Shown: positions 1 to 33,016 of the stretch, one piece after another
Layout: each line of letters opens with the position of its first letter
Numbering within the stretch: the first letter of the stretch is position 1
Origin: a virus
DNA: 36,740 nucleotides
Strand: one strand, 5' to 3'
IMG/VR virus record: IMGVR_UViG_3300021964_000204
Coordinates: 1 to 36,740 of that record
Notes under the pieces: model-generated
Database searches by the model: none
Told to the model about the DNA's origin: nothing
The model's input: the letters and a program-made list of their open reading frames with translations, nothing else
Made by a program: the position numbers and the translations under genes

Positions 1-2384
1 GGGTAGACGTAACTTGCAGTAACCCTAAAACCAAGTGCGCCACCAACAGAAAAACCAATGTCATTGGAAGCGACCCGATACATCCCCGTGTTGTCATCGT
101 CCAGAAAGGAGTAAGCGGGGTCAGCTTGCGTTCCGTCGCCAAACAGCATTTGAGCACTAGTGATTCTCAGACGTTCAGTAAAGCTCGTGGGTGGGTCGTC
201 AGCGTCCGTCGATGTCGGCACACTGTAAAGCGACACAGACTGACCTGTCTCGCCTCCATTGGCCGCTAGGTGCAGCGCCCAGCCAGCCGTGCTCGAAGCA
301 CCCGCTCCCGAGATGTATCGCCAGTTGACTGCTTGAGTACGATCACCTGAACCGCCGTAGTAAAGGTTGCTTGTGATGTAAGTGTTTGCACTCCATCCCG
401 TATGGCCGAAATGCCCGCTCGTTGTGTTGGTGGCGCGGAACGGTATGTTCCTTGCTTCAATGGCAGTGCTGTTCACATTAAGACGGACAGCCCCTGCGGT
501 AGTGAGGGAGAGAGTTCCTACTGCATCTAAGAACATCCCCGTGTCTGGATCACTGATAAATGCGTACGACGGTGAACCGTTTGCTCCGTCTGCTGTGAGT
601 AGCTGACTATCCGTAGCGTTCCACCGCAAATCGGAAGAATCAACATATAGCGCAGCGTCCCCGCCGGTATCCGGGGTCAACATCGGATAGTAGGTGCCTG
701 TGGTCAGGCTGCTGCCTGCGAGCGTGACGCTATCAGAGGACACACTCGTCAGCCCAGAGCCGTTCCCTTCAAACCGTCCTGTACCAGTGATTGAGATGTC
801 CAACCCCGTACCGGCCAGGTTGAGTCCAGTAGAGGAGTTGTACGTCAGGGCGACCGACCCTTCATATCCGTTACCGGAACCATTGGACACGAGCAATTCG
901 TCGTTTCCAACCTCTGCGGTCAGCCCAGTGCCACCGCGAGTGACTCCAAGCGTCCCGCTTGTTATGTCTGCCGCGCTATGTTCATGGCCTACGTTCGCAA
1001 CCTCGACCCATGTAGGTGCCCCATCTGTTGAGTTGTCGTCACGTTGGCCCAGCCAGAGTGTGTTGCCAAGCTCTAGGTACAGTCCTGCGTAACCGTTGTC
1101 AACGTCCCGTCTTCCCATCGTGAACCAGTAGCCGCGTGTCGCGCCGGAGGGGTTGCCCGTGGAGCTTCCCGCGTTAACAAAAACGTGAGTGCCAACACCT
1201 CTGTCCCAATCCGTCGCAGCTAGGGTGTCATAGCTCTGAGTAGTGACGCCGATGTCAGTTGTGTTAGGGAAAGTCCAGTTGCCAGTGATCGTCTCGTTAA
1301 CGTTCGACTCAACGAAGTTGCCGGTATCAAACAACGACACTGGAATCTGTTCGAACGGAACCGCAAGAGCGTCCCCAGCGTCCCCTACGAGAAGCTCGTC
1401 CGCACCGACTAGTGTCTCGTCCACCCACTGAGGGGCTGCGTTAAAGAGGTTCTCGGCCCCTCCACCAGCGTACATGATTCCGGCGAGAACCGCAGAAGTC
1501 CCGGTGATTGTAAGTCCTGACGCGCTTCCCCCACCCTGTGTGCTCGCCTCGCCAACGGATGTAACGATAGCCGTCAGGTCGTTATTAAACGATGACAAGT
1601 TTACATCGCCGAACAAAATCCTCTTAGTGTCCGACCCGTCGAGGTGGAACGCGAGCGAGTCTGCTGTGGTCGGGCTGGTTGTAGTAGGTGAACCAAGGCT
1701 CACAATGTCGAGGTCGAGGCCATCGTTGTTCTGGAGCCCGCTGTCCGTTGCGAGGGTCAAAGAAACGACCGGCGTGGTTCCTGCTGTTACGTTGATCGGT
1801 GATGTTCCGGTCACACTAGTGACTACGGGATTACCACCTTGAGTTATGGTTCCATTTACTTTTAAATCTTCCCCTTCTATTACTATAGGATTATTTCCAG
1901 TTGCAATAGATCCAGACATGACCAACACATCTACCATTTCTGGGGTCCCGTCTTCATTTTCTACAGAAAATATTAATGCCGGAACATCTGTAGATAATTT
2001 TGCACCACGCATTCCAGCCTTTTTGCCAGACGACAGATCAATCGCGAAATGTGGGTCGTCGGCCGCTGTATTAGATTTAGTAGCAATATATTGCTCGACC
2101 GATGATGGATTTCCTAAAGTTAAATTATCAACATATAACGTTCCACCACTTTCATTAGTTAGTCTCATAGCGGTAGTAGCATTATCATCTGGATCACTAG
2201 ATAGTAACCATTTATATTGATTTGTTCCACTGTTAGCTTCCCAAGCATATGCGGTAACGGTATTTTCGTTTACGTCATGATAATCATTTATATTGTCCAA
2301 TGACCATATCTGTCTTTTTTCCAATGCATTGACAGATACAGCAACATCGCTAGCATAAGATCCACTTGGTGAATATAACGCCAT
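1..2384 (-). CDS. Tail fibre-like protein, C-terminus off the window edge (mosaic)
   Basis: The reading frame starts at ATG 2384-2382 (MALYSPSGSYASDVAVSVNA), overlapping the TAA of the upstream giant fibre gene as TAATG. It stays open for 794 codons to the window edge, so the 3' end is missing. The first ~180 residues are AT-rich in DNA and end in a Gly/Ser/Thr-rich stretch (GTITQGGNPVV). The distal part is GC-rich and carries phage fibre signatures: GTLGVTRGGTG near residue 478, and two copies of a DPDTGMF / DDNTGMY motif (near 533-552 and 81-103 on the plus strand), each followed by a TLSLTTAGAVRL / DIGFSVGGALGF strand pair. Such NTGxY...G repeats are common in phage fibre and receptor-binding proteins. 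The role is inferred as host-contacting fibre. No chaperone or endosialidase domain is visible because the end is absent. Co-translation with the giant fibre is likely. Confidence 0.82.
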   Translation of the reverse strand, partial: MALYSPSGSYASDVAVSVNALEKRQIWSLDNINDYHDVNENTVTAYAWEANSGTNQYKWLLSSDPDDNATTAMRLTNESGGTLYVDNLTLGNPSSVEQYIATKSNTAADDPHFAIDLSSGKKAGMRGAKLSTDVPALIFSVENEDGTPEMVDVLVMSGSIATGNNPIVIEGEDLKVNGTITQGGNPVVTSVTGTSPINVTAGTTPVVSLTLATDSGLQNNDGLDLDIVSLGSPTTTSPTTADSLAFHLDGSDTKRILFGDVNLSSFNNDLTAIVTSVGEASTQGGGSASGLTITGTSAVLAGIMYAGGGAENLFNAAPQWVDETLVGADELLVGDAGDALAVPFEQIPVSLFDTGNFVESNVNETITGNWTFPNTTDIGVTTQSYDTLAATDWDRGVGTHVFVNAGSSTGNPSGATRGYWFTMGRRDVDNGYAGLYLELGNTLWLGQRDDNSTDGAPTWVEVANVGHEHSAADITSGTLGVTRGGTGLTAEVGNDELLVSNGSGNGYEGSVALTYNSSTGLNLAGTGLDISITGTGRFEGNGSGLTSVSSDSVTLAGSSLTTGTYYPMLTPDTGGDAALYVDSSDLRWNATDSQLLTADGANGSPSYAFISDPDTGMFLDAVGTLSLTTAGAVRLNVNSTAIEARNIPFRATNTTSGHFGHTGWSANTYITSNLYYGGSGDRTQAVNWRYISGAGASSTAGWALHLAANGGETGQSVSLYSVPTSTDADDPPTSFTERLRITSAQMLFGDGTQADPAYSFLDDDNTGMYRVASNDIGFSVGGALGFRVTASYVY
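1790..1870 (-). other. Composition break inside the fibre gene (mosaic junction)
   Basis: Hand counts of 60-base lines give 62% GC (from 1141), 57% (from 1741), 45% (from 1801), 33% (from 1861) and 35% (from 2161). The change falls at roughly codon 175-195 of the fibre gene, in the segment coding for the GTITQGGNPVVTSVTG stretch, and the reading frame passes through it intact. Rightward of the break the base composition matches the rest of the window. Leftward it does not. This is best explained as recombinational replacement of the distal fibre module. An assembly chimera is the alternative, and the intact frame argues against it. Confidence 0.7.
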
Positions 2385-5300
2385 TATTCAATCTCCTCTA
2401 ACATAAATCTATATTTTTTACCAGATTTGTTGTTTATAATATATAAATATTCTTCGCCCTCTTGAATAGTCCAGTTACCGTGAGTTCCATCAACACTATT
2501 TGGGCTACTACTCTCATTTGATAAGTGAAAATCGGCGGTGTATATGTTGGCCCAACGAAGGGATGCTGACCCGAGGTCATGTGCCGCGTCAGTATTTGGA
2601 CCAACATCACCCGAAACTTGTAATTTAAAGGAAGACGGGTCCGTAGTACCGATACCGACGTTGCCGGAACCACTTATTGACATTTTATTTGTTAAAGAAC
2701 CATCGTTTGTTTGAAAATTTATACTATTAACATCACTTTTAAAAACAATTCTAGAACTTAAACTACTAACTGATTCAGCAAAAGCAATTGCACCATCAGC
2801 GGTACCGTCTGTAGCAAATATTATTCCTCTACCAGTACTACTATAATCACCTATTTGTACCGTGTCTAATGCCGTACCAGAATTATTTTGCCATTGACCA
2901 GCTAGTCCTATATTATTTCCTTCAACATTTAAATTACCACTAGCACTAACATACCCATCGACTAACAAGAATGTTGACCCGGCAGTATCCAATACGATAG
3001 AAGCGGCGGAGCTGGTTACGTGTAATGCGGGAGTTGTTCCCTTAACTTTTAATGTGGTTCCGTCATACGTTAGATTGGTTTCTGCATCTACCGCATCACT
3101 AGCACCCGTAGCGGTTATGACCCTATCATTGGAATTATTATTGATTGTTAATGAAGTTCCACCACCACCAGAACCACCAACAATACTAGTTTCACCTAGA
3201 TTGAATATACTTTCTATTCCTTGTCCACGATCAAAATAAATACCATCATTTGATATTGCAATTGTTGGTAGAATGATTGAAGCACTTAAACTAGAAGTAT
3301 ATAGTTGTATATTTTCTGGCCACGAATCGCTCGGTGGCAGATCAGCATCTAGTAAACTAAACGCACCAACAAAATTAGTATTAATTATGGTATCGTCTAA
3401 TGGACTAAAACTTGCAGTAAAATGTATAAAATTATCCACATTATCAGAATAATCTGGAATTTGATATTCAAATGTATAACCACTCTGGGTAACCCCGAAG
3501 ATCATAGTATTAATTCCCTCTATCCACGGGTCATTCATATCGGCGGCCGATGGTAAATCATATAAAGAAAGATGAAATTCTACCACTTCACCAACGTTTG
3601 TTGTCCCGGCAGAAATACTTCCCATACTATGACCTTTAGTAAATTCGTTGGGTGTGGTGGTATTACCATACTCTATTACGGTAGCGAGGCCGGGGTTACT
3701 AGTAGATAATTGAGCGTCCTCTGGGTCTTCTCCCGGTCCAATCTTAATGCGGTTATCCGAACCAACAGTAACCAAACCAGCAAATTCCCCATCTAACGCA
3801 TATAAACTACCACTAAAGTATCCAGATGAAGCGGAAATGTCTCCCAAAACATTTAATGTAGATCCGTCCCATAACAGATGGCCAGTGGAACCACTGAGCG
3901 ATAACTTTGGTGCCGAGGCAGAACCAGATCCTATGAATATTCCTTTTTCTGCGTAGTCTTTAATTGGTTGTCCAATGGAAATGTATGGATTTTTACCCAA
4001 TGGCCAATCTGAAGCTAGTGTTATTTGTGCATATTTGGTTGCATATTCGCCATCACCACCCAATGACTCAGTAACGCCGACATTTATAGTTCTATGAGTA
4101 TAAATGTCCTGTGCAAGTAACATATCCGTTGCAACGGCTTTGAAAAATTCAAATTCTCTCCAATAACTACCCGAGTTAGACGAGGTTGGTGATGCCGAAG
4201 AAGCAGTTATGTTGCCTAATGATTCAGATTGTGGTGGATCTAAGATAAGATCGGGGTCTGTATTCGACCCAGACAAGAAATAATAATAAACACCATCAAC
4301 AGAAACTACATCTCTACTAATTTCTGTATGTTTGAATACAAAATTTGGTCCAAGGGCGTCAAATTCACCAACATATAATATGCCGGGACCAGTTGAACCA
4401 GTTTGGCCCGGAGTTCCGGGAGCACCGTCTTGTCCATCAGAACCAAACTTTCCAATAGTATATGATTGAACCTTTACTTGAGTATAATCTCCTGTAGATC
4501 CACTAAAAAATCTGAATTCATAAGCAGTATTATCGAAACCTACGTCATTCCATGATGCAGAAATAACCGAAGAACCAGAACCGATTGTAAATGTTTGGAA
4601 TCCGTTTTCAACAGAAGCAGATATACTACCACTGGCTAAATAGGTTGTCCCGCCTTGAGTTAATGAACCTGTAATAGTTGACGTTGTACCCACGGGGGCG
4701 ATTCCAGCAGAATTCGATACATATGTTACTGGACCATCTAAAATAAGGTTTATGATTGGAGCATCTTGACCGGGCGAGCCGTCAATATTAATATTAAATG
4801 GTTGTGCACCGACTTGTGTATAATTTCCGACAGAACCACTAAAGAATTTAAAATTATATCCGATAGGTGTTCCATCTTTATCAGCAGTCAATTGCCAAGA
4901 TGAAGACACACTTAACGATGAAGAACCAACAGCATTTACAGTAAGACCAGTTGTATCACTTGGGGTTATACTAGAACTAATTGTCGATAAAGTTGTTGCT
5001 GCCCTAATCAATGATCCTGTTATAGAGCTAGTTCCGGTGGGTAATATTCCAGCAGAACTAGAATTGAATGTGATTGCTCCACTAACTTCTAATATTGGTG
5101 TTATTCCGTCTTGACCATCGGTCAAATCTTCAACAGATACACTATCTGCAATATATCTACTACCAATAGCACCCGAACCAGTTAAATATCTAATTACAGC
5201 ACGTTCAAATATATCATCAGCACTAGCGGTGTAATATGAAGATGCGCCGCCTGGGTCATCTGGTCCACTACCAGACAGTGGTAAATTTGAACCACTAAAA

Positions 5301-8300
5301 AACAATCCAAATTGTTCACCATCAAACGAACCAGAGGGTACATTTTCAATAATACTACCACTTGAACGTTGAGTTTGGAAAATTAATCTTTCTGGAGTAG
5401 TGGTTCCTTGTGCATTTGTTTTAAACTGTAAACCATCAAGAGGTGTTATGTAATAAACAAAAGAACTTTCGCCGTCGATGCCGTCGGTCAAATCTGTAAC
5501 TGAAACGGTATCGACCAATACCGAAGCAGAATAAAATTGTAATTCTGCTCTATTTAGTATATCATCAGCACTAGCGGTATAAAATGCACTCGCGGGGCCG
5601 GGAGTGGGTCCACTACCAGAAACAGCTAATCCAGAACCACTATAAAATAGTCCGTACTCAGAACCGGAAGGTAAATCTTGAATCGCACTGCCAGTTGATC
5701 TTCTTGTAGCAAAATACAAGGCATCGGGCACCGTTAATCCATCTTTGTCGGTTTTAAATTCTGTACCATTTAACGTATCAATGTAGTAAATAACACCATC
5801 TTCACCAGCATTAGATTTAGTAAATGATTGTTTCTTTGAAAATTCTCTGGTTTCTGACCCACTAACAGCAGTGATCTTATATGTAATAGAAGCATTATTT
5901 TCTGCTGCTGGCATATTGTTTGGTGGGTTATCACCATATCTCAAATAAACACCAGTTGGAGTAGGAATTAAATCAGCATCAATATTATTTGTCGAAGTGA
6001 CAGAAGCAGAAAATTCTCCCGTGGTCGGTGTAGTGGTTACTGGAGTGAAGTTGGTTGCTCCATATAATACTTCGATGTCAGTTCCGCCACCAACATAACC
6101 ATCATTTACATTACCGTCATAGTCCGCAGAAAATGTGTGACTTTCATTTGATAATATAATCGTCCAGCCGTCAGTACCCGGCGTTATTCCAAAAAATTCA
6201 TTGTTATCAAAAGCAACACCATTAGGACTTGTGGTAGCGGATTCAGTTACGTGAACTTCTATTATCTGCGCAGTATAATTGTCTAGTGGTGGTGTTATAA
6301 ATGACGCAGTAACAAATTCATCAGAAGTTTGTGTCTTTTGTAATAGTGATCCGGTCCTATAAAAATTAAATTCGTAATCACCACCTTCTAAATTTTGTGT
6401 TTGTGCAGAAGCAGTTATAGATACTGGGGAAGGATCAACTCCAAATTCATCATAAACGATAGAATAATCACTTAATGTTAATTGAACCGTTCTAGAACCA
6501 GAACCATCACTGCCCGGAGCACCCTGTGTTGATTTAGAAAAAGATTGTACCTTAGTAAATAATGTAGTTACTGATCCAGTTACAGCAGCTATTCTAAATG
6601 TTACCGATCCCAAATCGGATGCAACTTCCATACCTTCTAGATCTGCAAATTCAACATAAGTTGGCTCACTGTCCGGTCCAAGTACCACAGAACCAGTTTT
6701 GTCTGGCTGATCTACACTACTAGATTGAAGTACGGATGCTGAAAAGTATCCGTTGGGCGGAGCCGATCCTGTCCACGGCAACAGATTATTTGCTCCATTT
6801 AATACTTCTATTTTCGTACCACTGCCGAGGAAACCGGCCGGGAATGGTACATTTCCGTCGTTATCTGCTGGTAATGTATGTGCGGTATTTGTTAATATGA
6901 TTGACCAACCATCTTTACCGGGAGTCACCCCAACAAAATCTTCCACATCTCTAGCCACACCACCAGCAACAGATTCACTAACTTGAACTTCTACATTTTG
7001 CTGTTTGTAATCATCTAAATCTGGAGTTTCGAAAGAAGCAGTAACGAACAGTGATCCTGTCGTTATGGTAGATAAAAATGATCCAGTTCTATAAAAATTA
7101 TATTCGTATGTACCACCCTCAAGATTTTGTGCTTGTGCGGAAGCAGTTATAGATGTTGGTGATGGAGTATTACCATATTGGTCATATACAACAGAATAAT
7201 CAGAAAGGGTTATTTTTATTGCTCTAGCACCAACTCCATCTGAACCGGGAGCACCGGGCGTACCGTCTGTCGCGTCTTTAACTCTATTGAATCTATAAAC
7301 GTCCGTTACATCACTAGCACTGACCGCTAATAATATTGAACTTGTTGGATCTGGGTTTAATGAAGCCGTTTGTTCACCGAATGCTGTGTGATATAATTCT
7401 ATATTAAGATTGCCGTTACTTGCGGTATAGAATTGTGACGGTACTAGAACATTATCGTCATCACGAAACTCAAATGTTGGGGTATCAGTAATATTAGTTA
7501 ATAGAACATCTATTGATGCGGTTTGTTCGGCTGGGATTGGGGTTCCATCGGAACCAAAAGAAAATAGTTGTCGATTTGATATAATTCTAATGGATTCACC
7601 ACCACCTTTTGGTGGAATGACAATTAAATCACTTATAAATTCATCGGAGATATCACCAGCCCATCCAATAAATTCTATTTTGAATATGTAAGTGGTTCCT
7701 TTTAGGATAGTATCTTCTGCATAAACAACAATTTCGTCAGGATTGAATCCATATTCAACTGCTGGTGTAATTACAAAGTTACTAAAGTTCCAAAATCCAC
7801 TTTCAACAATGAATCGTGGATAAACTACTCCATCTCTTGGTACGGTGAAATTGATTTGTCGTTCATATAATGATTTGTCATTGTCTCTGGTATTTATTTC
7901 GTCAACTAACAGGCCATATGTATTTTTTACACCATTTTGCGTAGCGATAATTACAGATGAACTATTTTTAGATTCAGCATCACTACCAATTCTGGTCATA
8001 TATGCTTTTACTGACCCAGTATCCGCTGTTGAATACGTGGTAGAACTTGAAATGTAACTTGGATTGTATACAGCGTCATATTTTAATGTGTATTGAACAT
8101 CTTGAAATAGTTGGAAAGACTCTTGTGTTCCAAAAAAGTAAGGAACAGCACTCTCTGTGTGGTCAGCATAGAATCCTTCTAATATTTCTTCAGAAGATGT
8201 GACCAATGTTCTGGGGGATGACAGCGATTCGCTATTTTCATAATCAGTAATGTCTAGTAAACCACCTTGCCAATTATTTTGTAATGTAGAATCTTCTAAA

Positions 8301-9484
8301 AATCTACCAATTGTTTGATTGCCTGTACTAGACCCAGTAATAAGAATATTTCTTTCGGTGGGTGCGAATTCGGTTAGTAGTTGCCACGCAGTAATTTCTG
8401 GGTTTGGTTCCTTAGCACTAATTCTAACCTTAGCAATTTCACCAGTTTGGGTAGTTGTGTAAGGAATTCTAAAGTTTAAAACCGACGAAAGAGCAGAGGT
8501 AACGTCAAATGTCTCTGTCGGATATTCAAAAATTACACTAGAAGTGATTTCTTCTTCAAGTCGCCTTTCTAAATTTCCACCCAAGCTATCTACTGTAACA
8601 TTTCTTATGTACGAACCGGAACGAAGTATTGGATTTAAGAAATCATCACCGTTACTAAATTTAATTGACTTTTCGGTGATTGCTAATGTTTCATTTAGTG
8701 TCTTGAATAATGGTGTGTATACACTAGCGGTCACATAATCTAAAACAATACTTTGTGAATCTGGTACTAGTACATCGTTATCATATAAATTACTAACTTC
8801 TCTCTTATATAATGATCCGGTAAAATAACCATCTACATTAACATCATCAAAGAATGGTGTTGGTGACCCAGCATTATCTATCATCTTAATAGCATAACCA
8901 TCAGATCTATGACCTTCAAAGTCATATTCCAATGATGCAGTATATATACTACTTGTTACGACCGTATCGGTTCTAGAAACAGTATTAAAATCTAGTCGTT
9001 CTACAGATAACCCATCTAAAATTCTAGCTGGAGAATTTGCTAGGATTAATTTGCTGGTATTTCTTCTAGTCGGATCAATGTCGATGGGAAACACCCAACG
9101 AATGTTAGGAGCTTGTTGTTGGTTGGCTGGAATCGGGCGCCCGTCTTCATAATTTGTTGCAGTTCCAACCACAACTAATTTTCCGGGCCCCTTTCTTGTT
9201 TTTTGGGTTATTTCAATAGAAGCTAATCTAGCGTTTCCTTCAGAATACCCTCCAACAATATTAGAAAATACAGATCTTCCGTTTCTATCAAGTACTTCGA
9301 TAAAAATTTCACTGTTTTGTTTTAATAATTGAGTTCCACGAATTAAAAATCCATTCTTACCCGCATGAAAATTTGAATCTAGTCGGGATACTTCAAAATA
9401 TTTTGAATATGAAACTGTATCTTCTATAAGAACAGGAACTTTTAATAAATTACGTTTAGTAATTCGTTTGGGAGTCCTAGCCAT
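2384..9484 (-). CDS. Giant modular tail fibre / virion structural protein (2366 aa)
   Basis: A very long protein beginning MARTPKRITKRNLLKVPV, with a basic N-terminus, an N-terminal region of about 735 residues, then six modules arranged A-A-B-B-C-C. Short collagen-like hinges such as TPGAPGSDG (near residue 740), QGAPGSDG (near 990), DGSPGQDAP (near 1570) and DGAPGTPGQTG (near 1685) separate most modules. After the last hinge comes a segment with HLLWDGSTLNVLGDISASSG, typical of fibre and tail-tip proteins. The C-terminal ~350 residues contain a GGSGGGG linker, the NVGIGTTDP motif frequent near fibre tips, a DLGSASLRWANIY segment, and an ending (NWTIQEGEEYLYIINNKSG) seen in T4-like phage fibres. 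The start has AGGG five bases upstream. A TATAAATA late-promoter match lies 57-64 bases upstream. It is probably a trimeric fibre attached to the baseplate. Which end binds the host is not shown by the sequence. Confidence 0.85.
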   Translation of the reverse strand: MARTPKRITKRNLLKVPVLIEDTVSYSKYFEVSRLDSNFHAGKNGFLIRGTQLLKQNSEIFIEVLDRNGRSVFSNIVGGYSEGNARLASIEITQKTRKGPGKLVVVGTATNYEDGRPIPANQQQAPNIRWVFPIDIDPTRRNTSKLILANSPARILDGLSVERLDFNTVSRTDTVVTSSIYTASLEYDFEGHRSDGYAIKMIDNAGSPTPFFDDVNVDGYFTGSLYKREVSNLYDNDVLVPDSQSIVLDYVTASVYTPLFKTLNETLAITEKSIKFSNGDDFLNPILRSGSYIRNVTVDSLGGNLERRLEEEITSSVIFEYPTETFDVTSALSSVLNFRIPYTTTQTGEIAKVRISAKEPNPEITAWQLLTEFAPTERNILITGSSTGNQTIGRFLEDSTLQNNWQGGLLDITDYENSESLSSPRTLVTSSEEILEGFYADHTESAVPYFFGTQESFQLFQDVQYTLKYDAVYNPSYISSSTTYSTADTGSVKAYMTRIGSDAESKNSSSVIIATQNGVKNTYGLLVDEINTRDNDKSLYERQINFTVPRDGVVYPRFIVESGFWNFSNFVITPAVEYGFNPDEIVVYAEDTILKGTTYIFKIEFIGWAGDISDEFISDLIVIPPKGGGESIRIISNRQLFSFGSDGTPIPAEQTASIDVLLTNITDTPTFEFRDDDNVLVPSQFYTASNGNLNIELYHTAFGEQTASLNPDPTSSILLAVSASDVTDVYRFNRVKDATDGTPGAPGSDGVGARAIKITLSDYSVVYDQYGNTPSPTSITASAQAQNLEGGTYEYNFYRTGSFLSTITTGSLFVTASFETPDLDDYKQQNVEVQVSESVAGGVARDVEDFVGVTPGKDGWSIILTNTAHTLPADNDGNVPFPAGFLGSGTKIEVLNGANNLLPWTGSAPPNGYFSASVLQSSSVDQPDKTGSVVLGPDSEPTYVEFADLEGMEVASDLGSVTFRIAAVTGSVTTLFTKVQSFSKSTQGAPGSDGSGSRTVQLTLSDYSIVYDEFGVDPSPVSITASAQTQNLEGGDYEFNFYRTGSLLQKTQTSDEFVTASFITPPLDNYTAQIIEVHVTESATTSPNGVAFDNNEFFGITPGTDGWTIILSNESHTFSADYDGNVNDGYVGGGTDIEVLYGATNFTPVTTTPTTGEFSASVTSTNNIDADLIPTPTGVYLRYGDNPPNNMPAAENNASITYKITAVSGSETREFSKKQSFTKSNAGEDGVIYYIDTLNGTEFKTDKDGLTVPDALYFATRRSTGSAIQDLPSGSEYGLFYSGSGLAVSGSGPTPGPASAFYTASADDILNRAELQFYSASVLVDTVSVTDLTDGIDGESSFVYYITPLDGLQFKTNAQGTTTPERLIFQTQRSSGSIIENVPSGSFDGEQFGLFFSGSNLPLSGSGPDDPGGASSYYTASADDIFERAVIRYLTGSGAIGSRYIADSVSVEDLTDGQDGITPILEVSGAITFNSSSAGILPTGTSSITGSLIRAATTLSTISSSITPSDTTGLTVNAVGSSSLSVSSSWQLTADKDGTPIGYNFKFFSGSVGNYTQVGAQPFNINIDGSPGQDAPIINLILDGPVTYVSNSAGIAPVGTTSTITGSLTQGGTTYLASGSISASVENGFQTFTIGSGSSVISASWNDVGFDNTAYEFRFFSGSTGDYTQVKVQSYTIGKFGSDGQDGAPGTPGQTGSTGPGILYVGEFDALGPNFVFKHTEISRDVVSVDGVYYYFLSGSNTDPDLILDPPQSESLGNITASSASPTSSNSGSYWREFEFFKAVATDMLLAQDIYTHRTINVGVTESLGGDGEYATKYAQITLASDWPLGKNPYISIGQPIKDYAEKGIFIGSGSASAPKLSLSGSTGHLLWDGSTLNVLGDISASSGYFSGSLYALDGEFAGLVTVGSDNRIKIGPGEDPEDAQLSTSNPGLATVIEYGNTTTPNEFTKGHSMGSISAGTTNVGEVVEFHLSLYDLPSAADMNDPWIEGINTMIFGVTQSGYTFEYQIPDYSDNVDNFIHFTASFSPLDDTIINTNFVGAFSLLDADLPPSDSWPENIQLYTSSLSASIILPTIAISNDGIYFDRGQGIESIFNLGETSIVGGSGGGGTSLTINNNSNDRVITATGASDAVDAETNLTYDGTTLKVKGTTPALHVTSSAASIVLDTAGSTFLLVDGYVSASGNLNVEGNNIGLAGQWQNNSGTALDTVQIGDYSSTGRGIIFATDGTADGAIAFAESVSSLSSRIVFKSDVNSINFQTNDGSLTNKMSISGSGNVGIGTTDPSSFKLQVSGDVGPNTDAAHDLGSASLRWANIYTADFHLSNESSSPNSVDGTHGNWTIQEGEEYLYIINNKSGKKYRFMLEEIE
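4440..5105 (-). repeat. Duplicated module C (two copies of ~110 aa) in the giant fibre
   Basis: Copy 1 (about residues 1458-1570) and copy 2 (about 1573-1682) share SSAGILPTGT / NSAGIAPVGT, SITGSL / TITGSL, YNFKFFSGSVGNYTQV / YEFRFFSGSTGDYTQV, followed by a collagen-like hinge. Confidence 0.82.
5115..5800 (-). repeat. Duplicated module B (two copies of ~110-120 aa) in the giant fibre
   Basis: Copy 1 (about residues 1228-1335) and copy 2 (about 1338-1456) share VIYYIDTLNGTEFKT / FVYYITPLDGLQFKT, a GLFYSGS / GLFFSGS strand, FYTASADDILNRA / YYTASADDIFERA, and end VSVTDLTDG / VSVEDLTDG before the next hinge. Confidence 0.85.
5810..7255 (-). repeat. Duplicated module A (two copies of ~240 aa) in the giant fibre
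   Basis: Copy 1 (about residues 745-985) and copy 2 (about 990-1225) share the order LSDYSVVYD / LSDYSIVYD, SITASAQ-QNLEGG, YNFYRTGS / FNFYRTGS, PGKDGWSIIL / PGTDGWTIIL, then an FSASV strand, and they end TKVQSFSKS / KKQSFTKS before a Gly-Asp hinge. The copies are diverged at DNA level, so the duplication is not recent. Confidence 0.85.
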
Positions 9485-9529: not shown

Positions 9530-12500
9530 TCAATTCATCGTATTTATATGACTGTAACCGTTGACCTTTTTAATTTCAATAATGTTATCGACCATATCGC
9601 GGATATTGTCTAAGTGACTAATGACCACGACATAATCAAATTGAGCTTTAAGTAAGTCAAACATTAATTGCATACCATGTAAGTATTCAGTATCAAGACT
9701 ACCCATACCCTCATCAATGATAAGAAAGTTTGACTTGGGTAGATTTGAAGCCTTTAACAGTGCGACACGAATAGCTAGACTACTAATAAACCGTTCCATC
9801 CCAGAACTATTCTCCAGTGGCCACGACCTTTCGTGGTCATACACAATACGACCGCCAAAATTCTTACCATCCACATCAAGTGCGATTGAGAATGGAACAA
9901 TCTGTGATAGAATACTATTAATTTCGCCTTCGATCACTGGAATTGTTTTAGAGATAAGAGTATACGGAATGCCATCTTTACCAACAGCATCAAGATAGTA
10001 TCGGTATGCTTCAAACTCTTGTTCTATCTTGGCGATCTCTTGTAGCTGATCCATGATATTTGACCGACTAGATTCATTAACCTTAAGATCAGAATGTAAT
10101 TCCATCTTTTGATTGTTGAGGTCGATCATTTCTTTCTTAGAAACTTGTAACTGTTGTTTTAGTTTATCAATTCCTTCTTGAATTTCTTTATTTGTGACCA
10201 ATGCATCTTCAAAGTCGGTCAGTTCTTCTAGTTTTTGATCAATACTTTCTTGTTCTGCTTTTATAGAAACAATTTGATTTTCATACTTATCTATATTGTT
10301 TTTACAAGAACGATGATCTAATTTGTGCTTTTCCAACAATTGCGTTGATTGTTTTGCTGTGAGGTAGAAACCATGATCTTCTTTCAAATCTTCAATAGCA
10401 ATTTTGAATGCAGCAATTTGCATAGCAGATTGGGAAGATTTTTCGTTCAATTCTTCGACCAGTGAGTTGATTTCGCCAATTTTTTCTAATTTTGACTTAT
10501 TATTTTCCACACACACTTCACAATCTGGATTATGATTGAATTGTGATATTTGTTCGATAGTTTGTAGTTTGTTATCAATGTTAGTTGATAGTAATGTGTA
10601 ACTTTGTTCTTCTGTACTTAGCTCTCTTTCAATAAACAAATAACTATTGTATGACTCTTCTAAAGATTCTATATCAACAGATCCCAAAGTAGTTTCAAGT
10701 ATTTCAGTTTTTGCTAAAATTTCTTCTTCTTCATTCTCTAAAACTTCTAGATTGTTTTGTATAACAGATAATTTCTTTTCATTTGAAGATTTGTTGGTAT
10801 CTAATATATTTCTATTAGATAAATTAGCAGGAACGGTAATTTTCTTAGAAGTTAGATGTTCAATTTCTAATTGTTGTTCATCTTGCTCACGTTCTGCTTC
10901 TCTAATCTTACTTTCAACACCCAATAACAGTAAATTCAACTCTTCAATGTTATTTTGGTACGTAACCAACTGATCTGTGAAATCTTCACGACTAAATTTC
11001 TTTAATACACCCTGAAGCTGTTTACTTTCTTCATTAGCAACGCGTTCTAGTAGTTCAAAGATGATAAGTCCCATGAACTGGTTAAGTAGAACCTTTCGTT
11101 CACTATTTGATTTGTCAATGAATAATGAGTTGCCTGTTTGACCAGATAGTGTGGTTAGAATGAAATCTTCGTAAGTTCCAACGATTGCACGAATATTTGC
11201 GTTAGTAGAGAACCGATCTTCACCATTTAAAATAGTTTCTGTACCGTCATCGTTTTCTTTCCAGAATTTTACGTCAACTCTTACAGTTCCCTTCTTATTT
11301 TTCTTTCCTTTTCGATTTATGACATACGTTGTCCCATTGACTTCGAATTTTAGCTCACATTCAAACTTTTTCTTGCGAATGTTCATAATATGATCACCAC
11401 GATACGCTCTTGGTGTCTTATCGAAGAGTGCAAAGATCAATGCTTCCATAGATGAACTCTTACCACTCGCATTTGGAGCAAAAATTCCGTAAGTTCCTTG
11501 CATATCAGTAAAATCTATAAAATTATCTTCACCGTAGGAAAATAAGTTAGAAAAACTGAATACTAATGGTTTCCAATGAATGTTTCTAGATTGGTCTGTG
11601 TAATTTATCAGCCCGTTCATCTTTTTATTGATCGAACAAGCAGATTCTACTAACTCTTCGGATACGGTTGGATAATTTGACGTAATCCATTCACTAATAA
11701 ATTTATTTTGGAGATTTACGTTGGTTAGATCACCAATATCAAAGGTACTGACCGCATTTGAAGAAATATTTGGATTGAGTCTGCTTGGGTTAACCGATAT
11801 GTCAATGATTCTATGAGTTTTCTTGATAACAGAAACAATTTTCTTTAGCTGTGAGTTCTCTACCGAAGAGAATACTCTAAGTCTTAGATTTTTTGGTAAA
11901 TTGTCTGGTATGGAAAACTTGTTAAGGTCTTTCTTTTCGATGTCTAAAGTTACGTAGCCCGTATCATTTTTTAGTTCAACAAATTCATACTCACATTTTG
12001 GCAGTTCCCATACAACATAACCATGACCACCAATAGTTTCACCATGATTTTGTTGAATTAAACTACTGGCATAAACAACTTCTGGCTTATTCTGTGTTTT
12101 GTTTTGGTGTTGGAGAACTTGATGTTTATGAATGTCGCCAAGCATGACCACATCCAATCCATCGAAACGATTAACTTCAACGTGCCTAGAGCTAATTGTG
12201 TAGTTAGTATCGGTTTTTGCACCGTATACCGGACCATGATACATTCCAATGTTGGTTTTTCCGGTCATAGTCGATACATCGGGCCAATCTTCAGGATCTC
12301 CTATAACCGAAAAGAGTGCGAACTGTGTGTCGGCCATCTCATAGACACCGCTATCGGTTAGGTAAAACAGATTTGGATGATTTAAATTCTTTACGATGGG
12401 AGATAGGCTGTTCATCCTATGTGGATTCGACAGATTCAGATCATGGTTACCATCAAAAATAATTGTGGGAGCTATGTCTGCTAGATTCTTGAGAAAGTCC

Positions 12501-12721
12501 GAAGCAAGGTCGATCATTTCTGGAGACATATCTAACTTTGCGTGTAGAATATCACCAGCAACCACGATTGCCCCGTTTGATAGATCAATTTTCTTTAATT
12601 GACTATACAGTTGTTTAAATGCCTTTCTATATTCATCGTGTCTTTTGAAGAGACGAATGTGAACGTCGGCTAAATGAACTACTCTTTCTAATTTATCAAA
12701 CGATACAAAAAGTTTTTTCAT
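9530..12721 (-). CDS. gp47-gp46: Fused Mre11-like nuclease and Rad50-like ATPase (gp47-gp46 fusion)
   Basis: One uninterrupted 1063-aa frame joins two proteins that are separate in T4. Residues ~1-380 are an SbcD/Mre11 calcineurin-like phosphoesterase: D19/H21 (ADVHIR), D57/H60 (GDILH), N92-H93-D94 (GNHD) and GDIHKHQ near 195, which are the metal ligands. Residues ~385-1063 are an SbcC/Rad50 SMC-type ATPase: Walker A GIFAPNASGKSS near 415, long coiled coils, a zinc hook CEVC near 734, signature SSGMERFISS near 974, Walker B FLIIDEGMGSLD near 1003, and an H-loop VVVISHLDNI. The complex resects DNA ends and supports recombination-dependent replication in the cytoplasm. The start follows the primase stop by 3 nt. 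The nearest SD-like bases (GGTG) are weak, so coupling to primase is likely. All active-site motifs are present, so both halves look functional. Confidence 0.95.
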   Translation of the reverse strand: MKKLFVSFDKLERVVHLADVHIRLFKRHDEYRKAFKQLYSQLKKIDLSNGAIVVAGDILHAKLDMSPEMIDLASDFLKNLADIAPTIIFDGNHDLNLSNPHRMNSLSPIVKNLNHPNLFYLTDSGVYEMADTQFALFSVIGDPEDWPDVSTMTGKTNIGMYHGPVYGAKTDTNYTISSRHVEVNRFDGLDVVMLGDIHKHQVLQHQNKTQNKPEVVYASSLIQQNHGETIGGHGYVVWELPKCEYEFVELKNDTGYVTLDIEKKDLNKFSIPDNLPKNLRLRVFSSVENSQLKKIVSVIKKTHRIIDISVNPSRLNPNISSNAVSTFDIGDLTNVNLQNKFISEWITSNYPTVSEELVESACSINKKMNGLINYTDQSRNIHWKPLVFSFSNLFSYGEDNFIDFTDMQGTYGIFAPNASGKSSSMEALIFALFDKTPRAYRGDHIMNIRKKKFECELKFEVNGTTYVINRKGKKNKKGTVRVDVKFWKENDDGTETILNGEDRFSTNANIRAIVGTYEDFILTTLSGQTGNSLFIDKSNSERKVLLNQFMGLIIFELLERVANEESKQLQGVLKKFSREDFTDQLVTYQNNIEELNLLLLGVESKIREAEREQDEQQLEIEHLTSKKITVPANLSNRNILDTNKSSNEKKLSVIQNNLEVLENEEEEILAKTEILETTLGSVDIESLEESYNSYLFIERELSTEEQSYTLLSTNIDNKLQTIEQISQFNHNPDCEVCVENNKSKLEKIGEINSLVEELNEKSSQSAMQIAAFKIAIEDLKEDHGFYLTAKQSTQLLEKHKLDHRSCKNNIDKYENQIVSIKAEQESIDQKLEELTDFEDALVTNKEIQEGIDKLKQQLQVSKKEMIDLNNQKMELHSDLKVNESSRSNIMDQLQEIAKIEQEFEAYRYYLDAVGKDGIPYTLISKTIPVIEGEINSILSQIVPFSIALDVDGKNFGGRIVYDHERSWPLENSSGMERFISSLAIRVALLKASNLPKSNFLIIDEGMGSLDTEYLHGMQLMFDLLKAQFDYVVVISHLDNIRDMVDNIIEIKKVNGYSHINTMN
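9541..9548 (-). promoter_or_regulatory. Candidate T4-type late promoter (TATAAATA) for the fibre genes
   Basis: The minus strand reads TATAAATA here, inside the last codons of the Mre11-Rad50 fusion gene. The T4 late promoter consensus is TATAAATA near -10, recognised by gp55, which is encoded in this window. Transcription would begin about 6-7 nt further on, leaving a leader of roughly 50 nt before the giant fibre ATG, which is an ideal position. Caution: with this base composition about four chance matches per strand are expected, so position is the main support. The leader also holds adjacent palindromes CTGAATTCAG (9501-9510) and AGTATACT (9509-9516). Confidence 0.5.
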
Positions 12722-12724
12722 ATA

Positions 12725-13645
12725 TTACACCATTTCTAGTTTCGTTCCTACCACATCAGTAAATTTACTATGTACTGCGTTATTGATGTTGGACCAAGCA
12801 AGTTCGAAACCCATATCACTTGCGTCCTTGTTGGTTGGAACTACTAATTTAACATTAACATTAACCGATTTCAAGTAACTCTCAATCTTTAATGCTTCAT
12901 TTTGTGCGTCTTTGTCTAACATAACATAAACCATTGGTGGCTTTTCTTTGACCAAGGTTTGTCGTAGTCTGTCGGACAGTAGCTTGCCCAGTAATGGGAT
13001 AGAATTTCTACGAACAGCGATTGCGTCGAATATTCCTTCGACCAAAACAATCGGCATATTCCAATTGATTAAATTTTCAAAGATAATATTGTTTCTGGAT
13101 GCTGGAGGGTTCTTGTACTTCATTCCCTCGTCATAATATGTTCTGGATACAAAGTAATTGACTTGATTATTTCTATCAAATGACGGAATGATGATTCTAT
13201 TTTTGTATTGACCATCATCACAATACCCAATCTGGTACCGATAAATGTCCTCTAGAACGACGCCTCTGGACTTAAGGAACCGTATGGCGTTTAGATACTC
13301 GTATGACTTCTCTGTGACCCTCCAGAGGGGTTTATACTCCTTAGGCAAGGTAATCTTGACCGTGTATTCTTCTGGGTTTTGTTCGGGAGCATAAGTGGAC
13401 TCTTCCTCACCAACGATGGAGTTGATCTCTTTTTTGGAATACCCTAATTTATATAACAATGAAGATATTTTCTTTCCACGTTCATTACAAATCCAGCACT
13501 TCCAATACCCGGCACGCTTACCAAAGTTAATCGAAAGTTTGGGTTTATGATGATAACAGAAAGGACAATGGAACAGACGCTCACCACTAGAGGTCTTTTT
13601 TGAGGTTCCAAGTATGTCTTCTAAAGAAAAAAGTATATTATCCAT
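12725..13645 (-). CDS. gp61: DNA primase (T4 gp61-like)
   Basis: The 306-aa protein has an N-terminal zinc ribbon with C27-x2-C30 and C50-x2-C53 (HCPFC ... WKCWIC), the CHC2-type template-binding motif of primases. A Toprim catalytic core follows, with the conserved glutamate in VLVEGIFDAIAV near residue 200 and the DxD in VMLDKDAQN near 242. Length is close to T4 gp61 (342 aa). It makes RNA primers at the fork, normally with a gp41-type helicase that is not in this window. It is flanked by a nuclease gene (13 nt gap) and the Mre11-Rad50 fusion (3 nt gap), forming a replication/recombination block. No strong Shine-Dalgarno is seen before ATG 13645, and no better start is available because the zinc ribbon begins at residue 27. 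Confidence 0.92.
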   Translation of the reverse strand: MDNILFSLEDILGTSKKTSSGERLFHCPFCYHHKPKLSINFGKRAGYWKCWICNERGKKISSLLYKLGYSKKEINSIVGEEESTYAPEQNPEEYTVKITLPKEYKPLWRVTEKSYEYLNAIRFLKSRGVVLEDIYRYQIGYCDDGQYKNRIIIPSFDRNNQVNYFVSRTYYDEGMKYKNPPASRNNIIFENLINWNMPIVLVEGIFDAIAVRRNSIPLLGKLLSDRLRQTLVKEKPPMVYVMLDKDAQNEALKIESYLKSVNVNVKLVVPTNKDASDMGFELAWSNINNAVHSKFTDVVGTKLEMV

Positions 13646-14346: not shown

Positions 14347-15159
14347 TTATTCGTCAAACTTAATTACAAAAGTTTGATCGGTATATTTCATTCTTGTTAA
14401 TGGTGCGGATAACTTAGCTGTTGCAAGTAACTCATTTTGGTCATTGTATAAACCAATAGATGTTATGTACGGTTCGGCAGAACCACTGTTAATATAATTA
14501 TTATATGTTTGTGTAGATCCAGAAATCACTGTAAATGACGACGGATTTAAAGTTATATTATACTCACTTGGTTTTATAGTACATATTACCGTATTTTCAT
14601 AAATAGTCAAAGTAGAATTAAAAGTGGTAGTGACCACACCAGCATTAGCAATACCCATACCTGACCCAGATATGAAATTGCCCGTAGTTCCAGCATCTCG
14701 CTGGACGGTAGCTAGTCCACTTTCATAAAAAATTTTACCAACGGTGTCCCCGGTTCCATTTAGTTTTAAATTTCCATTACTATCGTCACTAATGAAATCA
14801 CTGTCACCATCTATGTCAATTCTAAAACTACCCTTTTCTATTCTTTCACCGAAATATAATGAACCAATGTTCCAAACAAACATTGATGTATTTGGATAGA
14901 AATCATAAATGTCGGCTTCAAAGAACCAGTTTTTAACAGAATTGAAAAGTGGATAAGCATAGGAACCACTATTGGTTTGTGGTCCCAAATCACCTTCACC
15001 AGTTGGATAATTTGGATATACGGATAATGGATCTATTGCTAAATTAATATTAAATCCATCAATAAGCGAAGACCCAGAGGTCCATTCAATTGTGTAAGGA
15101 GTATGTACTAATATTTTTTCTCTAGTATGGCCTCCGCCAATCTCTTTGAAGACCGTCAT
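14347..15159 (-). CDS. Tail/baseplate-region structural protein, paired with the next upstream gene
   Basis: A 270-aa beta-rich, Ser/Gly/Asn/Thr-rich protein without transmembrane segments. Its C-terminal ~40 residues (YITSIGLYNDQNELLATAKL ...) match the C-terminus of the protein encoded just upstream (15171-16307), so the two share a module. The start has GGGAGG seven bases upstream. Genes of this type sit between baseplate and fibre genes in T4-like phages and are usually called virion structural proteins. The exact role is unknown. Confidence 0.78.
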   Translation of the reverse strand: MTVFKEIGGGHTREKILVHTPYTIEWTSGSSLIDGFNINLAIDPLSVYPNYPTGEGDLGPQTNSGSYAYPLFNSVKNWFFEADIYDFYPNTSMFVWNIGSLYFGERIEKGSFRIDIDGDSDFISDDSNGNLKLNGTGDTVGKIFYESGLATVQRDAGTTGNFISGSGMGIANAGVVTTTFNSTLTIYENTVICTIKPSEYNITLNPSSFTVISGSTQTYNNYINSGSAEPYITSIGLYNDQNELLATAKLSAPLTRMKYTDQTFVIKFDE

Positions 15160-15170
15160 TTAGAACCTCC

Positions 15171-16307
15171 CTAGAAGTCCAATCTCACACGAATTAATGC
15201 TTCCTTGGTTAGTGATTTCTCCAATGGGCGACTTAGCTTAGCAACAGCAAGTAGTTCATTTTGTTTATTATATAATCCAACAGTGGTAATAAACACCTTT
15301 GGGTCATACTCAAACTCTTCAATTTGAACCTTAGCGTCTGCTTCGTTAATCCATGTGGGATTGTTAGAAGTAGTAGCGTGATTGTTTCTAAGTCTGATAA
15401 AGAAATGTTGTGAAGAAATTGTTTCTGCAGAACGAGCTTGGAAATCTCCTCCAAGCACTAACGAACGATGTAATCCAATCCAATTGTATTGTTCAGTACC
15501 GTTTCCTGTAAGTGATCCAGTGTATGGTGATGCTGGAATACCAGTTGCATTGGTTACTGTATCGGCGGCGGTATCTGTATTTTCTGATTGTGCAGCAAAA
15601 CCAACAGTATCAATAATAGCACTTGGGTTAAGAATCATTATACCTTTTTGTGGATAGAATGTTCCATATCCTTCACCATTAGCAGCGGTTGATCCTGCAA
15701 TCGCACTTCCACTGACGCCTGAGATAGAACCAGAAACAATATTAAATGTATTGCCACTTTTAGCAAAACTTCTACGGGTTCCTAGTGCTTGTAAACTATC
15801 ATCAATAAATGTGAATAGTCCATTTGATCCTGACAAGGTTATTTGGAAGTTGCCGGGATCAACAACACTTTTAAATCTTGCTCTAGAAATAGCAATAGCA
15901 TAAATGTCTTCGGAAGTTACATTAGTACCTTGAAAAGAAAATAAACTATCTTCTGGGTCGTCAAGAAGAGCATTTTTAAACTGAAAATATACAGCCTTTG
16001 TAGATAACGTAGAGGTATCATCTTGTGTTAATGTGGGAGAGCCCGCACCAGATACGTGACCGTATGCTAATGAATATTGAACTTCGGCGGTTGAATCGGA
16101 GGCAGGGTCTTTATCAAAGACATTAACAAAATAACTAGCATTTGCTTTTGCTAATTGTGTAGTTGATGTAAAAAATGATGATAATGAACCTGTTTCTCCT
16201 GACCAAAGACCAGTGGTTACTTCAACATCACGGGTTACTATGTCTCGTGACTCAACTCCGTCTAGTGTTTCTGAACCAAATTTATGATATACTCCGTCGT
16301 GTGCCAT
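15171..16307 (-). CDS. Tail/baseplate-region structural protein with shared C-terminal module
   Basis: A 378-aa protein starting MAHDGVYHKFGSETLDGVES, beta-rich with many Ser/Gly/Thr turns. It includes a segment FYPQKGIMILNPSAI and a conserved-looking NWIGLHRSLVLGGDFQARS stretch. It ends with FITTVGLYNKQNELLAVAKL followed by a short basic/acidic tail, which aligns with the end of the next gene (14347-15159). An AGAGG ribosome site precedes the ATG. It lies in the baseplate gene run with an 11-nt gap to its partner. It probably belongs to the distal tail; no enzymatic motif is visible. Confidence 0.78.
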   Translation of the reverse strand: MAHDGVYHKFGSETLDGVESRDIVTRDVEVTTGLWSGETGSLSSFFTSTTQLAKANASYFVNVFDKDPASDSTAEVQYSLAYGHVSGAGSPTLTQDDTSTLSTKAVYFQFKNALLDDPEDSLFSFQGTNVTSEDIYAIAISRARFKSVVDPGNFQITLSGSNGLFTFIDDSLQALGTRRSFAKSGNTFNIVSGSISGVSGSAIAGSTAANGEGYGTFYPQKGIMILNPSAIIDTVGFAAQSENTDTAADTVTNATGIPASPYTGSLTGNGTEQYNWIGLHRSLVLGGDFQARSAETISSQHFFIRLRNNHATTSNNPTWINEADAKVQIEEFEYDPKVFITTVGLYNKQNELLAVAKLSRPLEKSLTKEALIRVRLDF

Positions 16308-31317: not shown

Positions 31318-32415
31318 TTATAACAGGTGTGGCGTTGCCTCTCGTAAACCATTGGTAGTGACCGAAACAAAATTTCCATTGATATACATCTCATCAATTG
31401 TTTCAGCACCAACATAACTCATGGCAGAGCGAACTCCGTCCATTATTTCCCTAATCACGGATTCAACATTACCCTTATAGGGTACTGTAGTAGCTGTTCC
31501 TTCAATATTTTCTAAGGTACTAGAAGATAATGTTTTCTGAACATCACTTGCTGATCCGTGGTAAACTTTCATTCTCTGTCTTTTTCCATAATTACCAAAA
31601 TACAAAAACTCGCCGGGGGTTTCGTCTGTTCCAGAGATCATTGATCCAAGGATTACCGATGATGCACCCGCTGTAATCGCTTTGGCGACATCGCCTGGGG
31701 CACGGACACCACCACATGATATAATGGGTGTATTAGCTACTATAGAGGTTTCATGGAGACATGAAATTTGGGGAATGCCTACTCCTGTCCTAATGCGTGT
31801 TTCACACACTGAACCCCCACCTATCCCAACACGAAGTGCGTTAGCTCCCCAATACTCTAAATCTTCTACAGCCTTGGCGGTTGCTATGTTTCCTGCAATT
31901 ACATCGAACTCCATATTAAGCGACGTTCTCAGCATCTTCAATTCTTCAAGAGTCTGTCGCGTTGATAAATGATGACCGTGTGCTATATCTATGACCAGAA
32001 CATTAGCACCGGCTTCGACCAGTGCTCTTGCTCTATACATATCCTGTTCTTTAGCTCCAATAGCAGCTGCGATAACTGGATTTGTGTACCTATAACTAGT
32101 CCATTCGGTTCCCATAGATATGAGTTCTTCTTGTTTAGACTTTACTTTACTAACAATATCTACCTGTTCTTCTATAGTATTAAATCTATGAATGATTCCA
32201 ACACCACCCAATCTCCACATTTCAAACGCCATATCATATTCACAAATGGAAGCCATTGGTGAGGCGATTAATGGAATATCAATGTGATAATTTTCCGTAA
32301 ATAATGTACTGGTATCACAATTAGAACGTGAAGCTACTTCACTGTACTGTGGTATGATTTGTACATCATCGAACGTAAGAGCTTGATTAATGTTAGATAG
32401 TTTCGTATAGGGCAT
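31318..32415 (-). CDS. IMP dehydrogenase / GMP reductase family enzyme (auxiliary metabolic gene)
   Basis: A 365-aa TIM-barrel enzyme. It shows FDDVQIIPQYSEV at the N-terminus, SPMAS near 52, VIDIAHGH near 141, AGNIAT near 174, the catalytic loop GIGGGSVCETRIRTGVGIPQ with C204 and T206, SCGGVRAPGD near 233, and VPYKG near 311. No CBS (Bateman) insert is present. The short flap before VPYKG has E305-G306 and no Arg-Tyr dyad; IMPDH uses that dyad, whereas GMP reductase uses a Thr-Glu pair. This leans toward GMP reductase (GMP to IMP, NADPH) over IMPDH (IMP to XMP, NAD). The C-terminal LREATPHLL is not typical of either as I recall them. The start lies 23 nt inside the glycosyltransferase gene. 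It acts in cytosolic purine balance. Confidence 0.9.
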   Translation of the reverse strand: MPYTKLSNINQALTFDDVQIIPQYSEVASRSNCDTSTLFTENYHIDIPLIASPMASICEYDMAFEMWRLGGVGIIHRFNTIEEQVDIVSKVKSKQEELISMGTEWTSYRYTNPVIAAAIGAKEQDMYRARALVEAGANVLVIDIAHGHHLSTRQTLEELKMLRTSLNMEFDVIAGNIATAKAVEDLEYWGANALRVGIGGGSVCETRIRTGVGIPQISCLHETSIVANTPIISCGGVRAPGDVAKAITAGASSVILGSMISGTDETPGEFLYFGNYGKRQRMKVYHGSASDVQKTLSSSTLENIEGTATTVPYKGNVESVIREIMDGVRSAMSYVGAETIDEMYINGNFVSVTTNGLREATPHLL

Positions 32416-33016
32416 TTTGCTCTCGCTGTCTTTTAATTTCTTTGATATGATAAAGCGCCCATTCTTTTTCTTTAGGTAATGTGGTAAATGATGCGTGACC
32501 AGTAATCATCTCATGTACTTTATTTTTCCACACAATCTGCGGTTTATTTTGGAATATTCTAGTTTGATAGTCCGGCCACATTACCCAGCCCATTTCATTA
32601 ACTGTCCAATTCCATTTACTAACATCTTCCTGAGTTAATCCATTTACAATATTAATTCTAGGTACAGCAATCAAATCAACATCCGTATTATATTCTAATA
32701 GAGTATGTAAATTTGTTGATAGATAATCTGACATATATTCATCAGCATCAATCTGAAAAATCCATTTATTGCTACATTGTTCTTTTCCAAAGTTTTTATG
32801 TTCAGCAAAATTTTCATTTAGGTGATGAGAATAAATGTGTATGTCAATATCACTATTTTCTTGTTTAAAATTTTCTAACAAAGAAAGAGTTGGATATTCA
32901 GAAAAGTCTGATAGAAATATAATTTCATCTTCAAGACCAACTGTATTTTTTAGTTGGTCTAATAGCTTAGGAATATATTCCTCTTCGTCTTTAACCGTAA
33001 TAAGAAAACTAATCAT
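32393..33016 (-). CDS. Family 2 glycosyltransferase
   Basis: A 207-aa single GT-A domain: N-terminal ISFLITVKDEEEYIPKLLDQ, a nucleotide-sugar binding beta strand, and the metal-binding DADE at residues 90-93 (FQIDADEYMSDYL). A later DYQTRIFQNKPQIVWKNKVH segment is typical of WaaE/LpsA-like GT2 enzymes that extend lipopolysaccharide or protein glycans. The substrate is unknown: candidates are host surface sugar, virion protein or modified phage DNA. The start (ATG 33016) overlaps the UvdE stop as ATGA with AGGAAG seven bases upstream. It is short for a GT2 enzyme but appears complete. Confidence 0.85.
   Translation of the reverse strand: MISFLITVKDEEEYIPKLLDQLKNTVGLEDEIIFLSDFSEYPTLSLLENFKQENSDIDIHIYSHHLNENFAEHKNFGKEQCSNKWIFQIDADEYMSDYLSTNLHTLLEYNTDVDLIAVPRINIVNGLTQEDVSKWNWTVNEMGWVMWPDYQTRIFQNKPQIVWKNKVHEMITGHASFTTLPKEKEWALYHIKEIKRQREQNALYETI

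Follow-up and report, generated by a model that had tools for sequence, protein, structure and literature searches.

A single-frame Mre11-Rad50 fusion gene of the Mimivirus R555 type in a tailed-phage genome fragment, with relatives split again inside the nuclease domain

In phage T4 (gp47 and gp46) and in E. coli (SbcD and SbcC), the Mre11-type and Rad50-type enzymes are the products of two genes, as a sequence-only reading of this DNA had rightly pointed out. In the window (the whole analysed stretch of 36,740 nucleotides, IMG/VR virus record IMGVR_UViG_3300021964_000204) the motifs of both enzymes lie in one open reading frame. The locus therefore raises the question of whether this frame encodes a natural single-chain enzyme or is an error that merged two normal genes, and, if it is natural, to which known Mre11-Rad50 enzymes it belongs. 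The coordinates first given for the gene are correct; its strand, which had been left unstated, is minus.

9530..12721, minus strand: single-frame Mre11/Rad50 (SbcD/SbcC) fusion gene (Pfam, PHROG; the same ORF is whole in 148 loci)

The ORF begins with ATG and encodes 1063 aa (~120 kDa), and the plus strand across 9530-12721 is crowded with stops. Pfam domains Metallophos (residues 13-199) and AAA_23 (391-625) both exceed their own cut-offs. Among PHROG profiles, an SbcD-like match at 13-372 (2.7e-24) and an SbcC-like match at 287-1061 (6e-50) jointly span nearly the entire chain. Each half is detected independently by Pfam and PHROG within one ORF, which bears out the proposal of a natural single-chain Mre11-Rad50. 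A chance frame is excluded by the length of the ORF and its degree of conservation. The AlphaFold2 (AF2) model of the whole chain has a pLDDT of 84.9 and a pTM of 0.47 (long coiled coil), while residues 1-380 reach 89.9 and 0.79. The preferred reading, to which a probability of about 0.88 is assigned, is that a complete Mre11 (SbcD) and a complete Rad50 (SbcC) are fused end to end in this gene, which is of the Mimivirus R555 type, and that the gene product is the Mre11-Rad50 complex of this phage. Judged from sequence motifs and predicted structure, both enzymatic halves have intact catalytic motifs, the helix-loop-helix (HLH) is kept, the linker is short and near-constant, and the zinc-hook CxxC is present.

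In searches of viral contigs, the window protein found 9 relatives and its counterpart from Microcystis phage Mel-JY01, used as the query, found 20. An alignment search of viral contigs confirmed at least 591 loci. Single-frame homologues are 22-84% identical to the window protein. Two samples of loci, which share a few contigs, were picked by score, so the following fractions are not population estimates: the whole gene is in one frame in 107 of 118 loci in the first sample and in 41 of 80 in the second. Many of the remaining loci end at a contig edge and the rest are split elsewhere. No split at the Mre11/Rad50 junction was found in about 200 loci; relatives with two separate genes near codon 380 were what the sequence-only reading had named as the sign of a sequencing error. 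The residues D19, H21, D57, N92, H93, H162, D196, H198, N417, G420, K421, C737, G974, D1003 and E1004 are invariant in the 107 full-length homologues.

These results bear on the possibility that a sequencing or assembly error merged two normal genes through a lost stop or start near codon 380. Nothing speaks for such an error except the two-gene arrangement of T4 and E. coli. Besides the single-frame loci in both samples, the sequenced isolate Mel-JY01 has the fusion as a single annotated CDS, and in 105 of the 107 homologues the stretch between the two halves (370-382) has 13 residues. An artefact is ruled out for practical purposes by the single-frame relatives, the invariant catalytic residues and the constant linker. 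A scan of a genome collection returned only six loci, every one of them from a metagenome-assembled bin, which gives no indication of a cellular home.

The N-terminal half contains two Mre11 domains:

12005..12688, minus strand: Mre11 calcineurin-like nuclease core, residues 12-239 (Pfam, invariance in 107 homologues, fold match)
11786..11992, minus strand: Mre11 capping domain, residues 244-312 (AF2 model, VIA-align range 12-312 against an SbcD nuclease and capping crystal structure)

The nuclease motifs are D19xH21, G56D57, G91NHD94, H162 and G195DIH198. Motif V of the fusion (GDIH) has Asp where canonical Mre11 has His (GHxH), a family-wide trait with D196 present in 107/107 homologues. H60 in motif II (GDILH) is invariant in 81 rows. 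In VIA-align, residues 12-312 of the model match S. aureus SbcD (7dog_B) with Z 25.4 over 277 residues (rmsd 3.5), and the Mre11 half is accordingly predicted to have the nuclease and capping fold.

The features of the C-terminal half are:

9533..11575, minus strand: Rad50/SbcC ABC ATPase with coiled coil, residues 383-1063 (VIA-align to 7yzo_D)
11456..11479, minus strand: Walker A APNASGKS, residues 415-422 (sequence, homologue alignment)
10511..10522, minus strand: zinc-hook CxxC, C734-E-V-C737 (C734 in 105/107 and C737 in 107/107 homologues)
9794..9805, minus strand: ABC signature SGME, residues 973-976 (homologue alignment)
9710..9727, minus strand: Walker B FLIIDE, residues 999-1004, with D1003 and E1004 (homologue alignment)

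Residues 383-1063 align with E. coli SbcC (7yzo_D) with Z 32.3 over 350 residues (rmsd 3.6), and residue 383 corresponds to SbcC residue 1. The Q-loop is Q528 and the H-loop is H1036. By motifs and model, the Rad50 half has the ABC ATPase head, the coiled coil and the CxxC hook. The Mre11 and Rad50 motifs sit where they had been placed from the sequence, to which motif V (GDIH) and the signature (SGME) can be added. The SGME signature is typical of the whole homologue family. With Asp in motif V, unlike the Mre11s studied so far, and SGME in place of SGGE as the signature, metal use or ATPase rate may differ.

Between the two halves lie:

11612..11719, minus strand: predicted Mre11 C-terminal helix-loop-helix (Rad50-binding type), helices 335-349 and 355-370 (AF2, structural alignment, conserved block)
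11576..11611, minus strand: inter-domain linker, residues 371-382 (reduced pLDDT)

The sequence-only reading had described a fusion of gp47 and gp46 in which a covalent linker replaced the Rad50-binding helices of Mre11. Both parts are indeed in one chain, but the replacement is not supported. The two helices are predicted with an AF2 pLDDT of ~84-92 after a flexible stretch that follows the capping domain, are conserved, and fall inside an alignment with the T. maritima HLH, leaving a linker of only ~13 residues. In that alignment, residues 12-375 match T. maritima Mre11 (3tho_B, Z 24.7, 325 residues) with an rmsd of 10.4, which is probably high because the parts are flexibly linked; the aligned T. 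maritima ranges covering the HLH are 7..383 in 3tho_B and 7..385 in 3qg5_D. Nor is an identity with gp47 and gp46 in particular supported: motifs II and V and the ABC signature are different in the T4 proteins, and the fused proteins group apart from T4-like pairs. A supported branch (96/91) separates 20 fused proteins from the split pairs, nine of which were in the tree. This tree was built without R555 and cellular fusions, and its deep part is unsure due to the long branches of phiLo, E. coli and VibrioD386; no statement on a single origin of all fusions is made from it. A fusion of T4-type subunits with a substituted linker is thus very improbable. Close descent from T4 gp47/gp46, considered separately, is unsupported, given the motif differences and the tree (branch 96/91, long branches).

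If the R555-type fusion reading is right, two fusion chains would pair through their ATPase heads and Mre11 cores, with the HLH of each chain gripping the base of the coiled coil in the Rad50 part of that same chain (in cis). With such cis binding, the fusion would fix the 1:1 stoichiometry and leave the architecture unchanged. ATP cycles of Rad50 would gate the Mn-dependent nuclease, which would open and resect DNA ends into 3' overhangs for strand invasion. As with T4 gp46/gp47, the resected ends could feed recombination-dependent replication together with the primase encoded next to the fusion:

12725..13645, minus strand: DnaG/Toprim-type primase, 306 aa, directly upstream of the fusion (Pfam/PHROG)

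The primase stop is 3 bp ahead of the fusion start. A primase relative is a near-constant upstream neighbour, found in 111/118 and 79/80 loci of the two samples. Directly downstream of the fusion, a 2366-aa ORF (2384-9484, minus strand) is without a Pfam or PHROG match.

The window comes from a contractile-tailed phage, a distant relative of Microcystis phage Mel-JY01, with which its tail and baseplate genes are syntenic. Mel-JY01 encodes the same fusion (WWT39521.1, 'AAA domain containing protein'), with 36% identity over the full length and the same primase neighbour. Unlike in the window, a small additional ORF separates primase and fusion in Mel-JY01 and the structural-gene surroundings are partly reordered. 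Across the complete Mel-JY01 genome, nothing but the fusion matches Metallophos, and no second strong SbcC-family match occurs. In contigs of 237-274 kb the fusion is likewise the sole strong SbcC-family match; in the 735-kb phage LR756501 another stretch is SbcC-like. The window is a 36.7-kb virus fragment, and a second, split copy could lie elsewhere in this virus.

Among other genes in the window, two adjacent structural-looking proteins (15171-16307 and 14347-15159, minus strand) match the same several Mel-JY01 proteins with their C-terminal ends, a repeated C-terminal module in what are possibly fibre or virion proteins. An IMP dehydrogenase / GMP reductase-like gene (31318-32415, minus strand; PHROG 9582, 6.6e-93) is found amid phage tail genes. 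A UV damage endonuclease (UvsE/UvdE; 33013-33897, minus strand) scores 161.8 bits in NCBIfam against a cut-off of 124.45.

By analogy with T4, the fusion likely resects and tethers DNA ends for recombination-dependent replication. A specialised role instead, for example degradation of the host chromosome or cutting of hairpins and palindromes, is the less probable option, although by annotation T4 gp46/gp47 are needed for host-DNA degradation as well as for recombination. Cellular carriers of such fusions usually have the normal pair too, which points to a different role in those organisms (PMC3175470). In Mel-JY01, however, the fusion is the only copy, and together with the constant primase neighbour this fits a core replication role. 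The ~120 kDa single chain would be convenient for structural and single-molecule work, since only a single gene needs expressing and the stoichiometry is set.

The loci split elsewhere uncovered a second arrangement. Some relatives leave the fusion joint intact but have the fused gene cut again within the Mre11 nuclease domain, just past motif V. The corresponding site in the window and the re-split loci are:

12083..12118, minus strand: turn between strands 201-204 and 214-217, residues 202-213; unbroken in the window, re-split site in some relatives
L012, 4980-9205: re-split locus in huge phage LR756508 (484 kb)
L033, 3313-6547: re-split locus
L045, 5983-9324: re-split locus
L166, 4974-8552: re-split locus
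L167/L169/L174-L212, about 4962-9184: re-split loci of one phage group
L012, 5701-6618: endonuclease-like ORF in the re-split gap, with a CxxC zinc-finger-like N part and a TnsA-like nuclease domain (PF08722)
L169, 5653-6591, and the same place in L167-L212: conserved ~308-aa ORF in the re-split gap, with only a sub-threshold DUF354 match

The first piece is ~221-243 aa long with an additional ~25-aa tail, the second ~855-869 aa with a ~10-20 aa head. In most cases checked the adjacent frames overlap or almost touch, and the catalytic residues are retained in both pieces. The re-split state takes five changes to explain on a tree of 72 rows, and five are enforced by supported branches, i.e. 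at least five lineages. The tails are clearly alike in four of the five lineages (0/5000 shuffles reach the pairwise scores), with L033 weaker. A search of the tail peptide against isolated phages found only its own source record and, with so short a query, is uninformative.

The contents of the gaps vary. The ORF in L012 matches PF08722 (TnsA-like N domain) at 27.2 bits against a cut-off of 26.5 and is a candidate homing endonuclease. The ~308-aa ORF of the large phage group has no Pfam match over the cut-off; L166 has a 103-aa ORF, and L045 and L033 contain nothing sizeable. An Rfam scan for introns in the window and two re-split loci gave nothing at the gathering threshold. A split intein was considered and set aside, since there is no Cys/Ser/Ala boundary at a sensible place and a ~25-aa tail and ~10-20 aa head are too short for an intein.

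The re-split genes resemble known genes-in-pieces made by homing endonucleases, namely nrdA of phage Aeh1 and gene 43 of phage 25, whose pieces reassemble (PMC2988022). Of the re-split lineages, L012 has the endonuclease-like ORF in its gap, and the others have another gap ORF or none. On balance, it is probable that the fused gene was re-cut at least five times at one spot of Mre11 past motif V into a two-part enzyme (a nuclease-core fragment and a capping-HLH-Rad50 part) whose pieces would have to reassemble. The recurring ~25-aa tail would then probably derive from a mobile endonuclease element, and an unrelated ~308-aa gene would now sit in the gap of the large phage group. Both the mobility of the element and the reassembly are inferred. 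An earlier report of a re-split Mre11 was not found in the literature searched; the re-split relatives are less expected than the fusion itself and may be new. They suggest that evolution can shift the border between the nuclease and ATPase subunits, and they offer a natural test of Mre11 folding and assembly from pieces.

Contrary to what the sequence-only reading had implied, the fusion itself is not novel. In 2011 Yoshida, Claverie and Ogata reported the Mre11/Rad50 fusion R555 of Mimivirus along with twelve more, one of them in a Bacillus phage; together the set spans R555, the Bacillus phage, plasmids and eukaryotes (PMC3175470). The window protein is a new example of this known kind; what the survey contributes is scale, genomic context and structure prediction. 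As described for R555 (PMC3175470), Mre11 is N-terminal and Rad50 C-terminal in one frame. The active-site oddities of R555, His for the third motif II Asp and Asp for P. furiosus His206 in motif V (PMC3175470), recur as H60 and D196. R555-type fusions were argued to retain the HLH and a 9-12 residue linker, fitting the T. maritima geometry (PMC3175470); the window protein likewise keeps the capping and HLH regions, with a stretch of 13 residues against the 9-12 estimated. Aquatic viral metagenomes were found rich in R555 homologues adjoining phage primases (PMC3175470), and the window fusion is similarly viral and aquatic, with a primase neighbour. Unlike R555, it is encoded by a tailed phage, is shorter (1063 against 1351 aa), and can be viewed whole in its genomic surroundings. 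The best viral matches in a Foldseek search of BFVD are Mimiviridae proteins (Tupanvirus, Harvfovirus, Catovirus), full length at 19-25% identity.

Three further isolated phages have Mre11 and Rad50 in a single frame, annotated only as endonuclease subunit or metallo-phosphoesterase:

L121, 4412-7012: fusion of Thermus phage phiLo
L122, 5992-9948: fusion of Tenacibaculum phage PTm1
L123, 6004-9936: fusion of Tenacibaculum phage pT24

Compared with the window protein, these show 21-27% local identity, are 866-1318 aa long and sit on deep or unsure tree branches. T4 gp47/gp46 and E. coli SbcD/SbcC are the same two enzymes, and the halves of the window protein have the SbcD or SbcC fold. The T4 and E. 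coli proteins differ in having GHxH in motif V and SEGE or SGGE as the signature, and in T4 two small genes lie between the gp47 and gp46 genes where the window has one ORF. According to the survey, the 'sporadic' fusions of 2011 extend to a large and conserved family of genes on viral contigs that is paired with a primase, which supports the proposal of Yoshida et al. that viruses are the main home of Mre11/Rad50 fusions.
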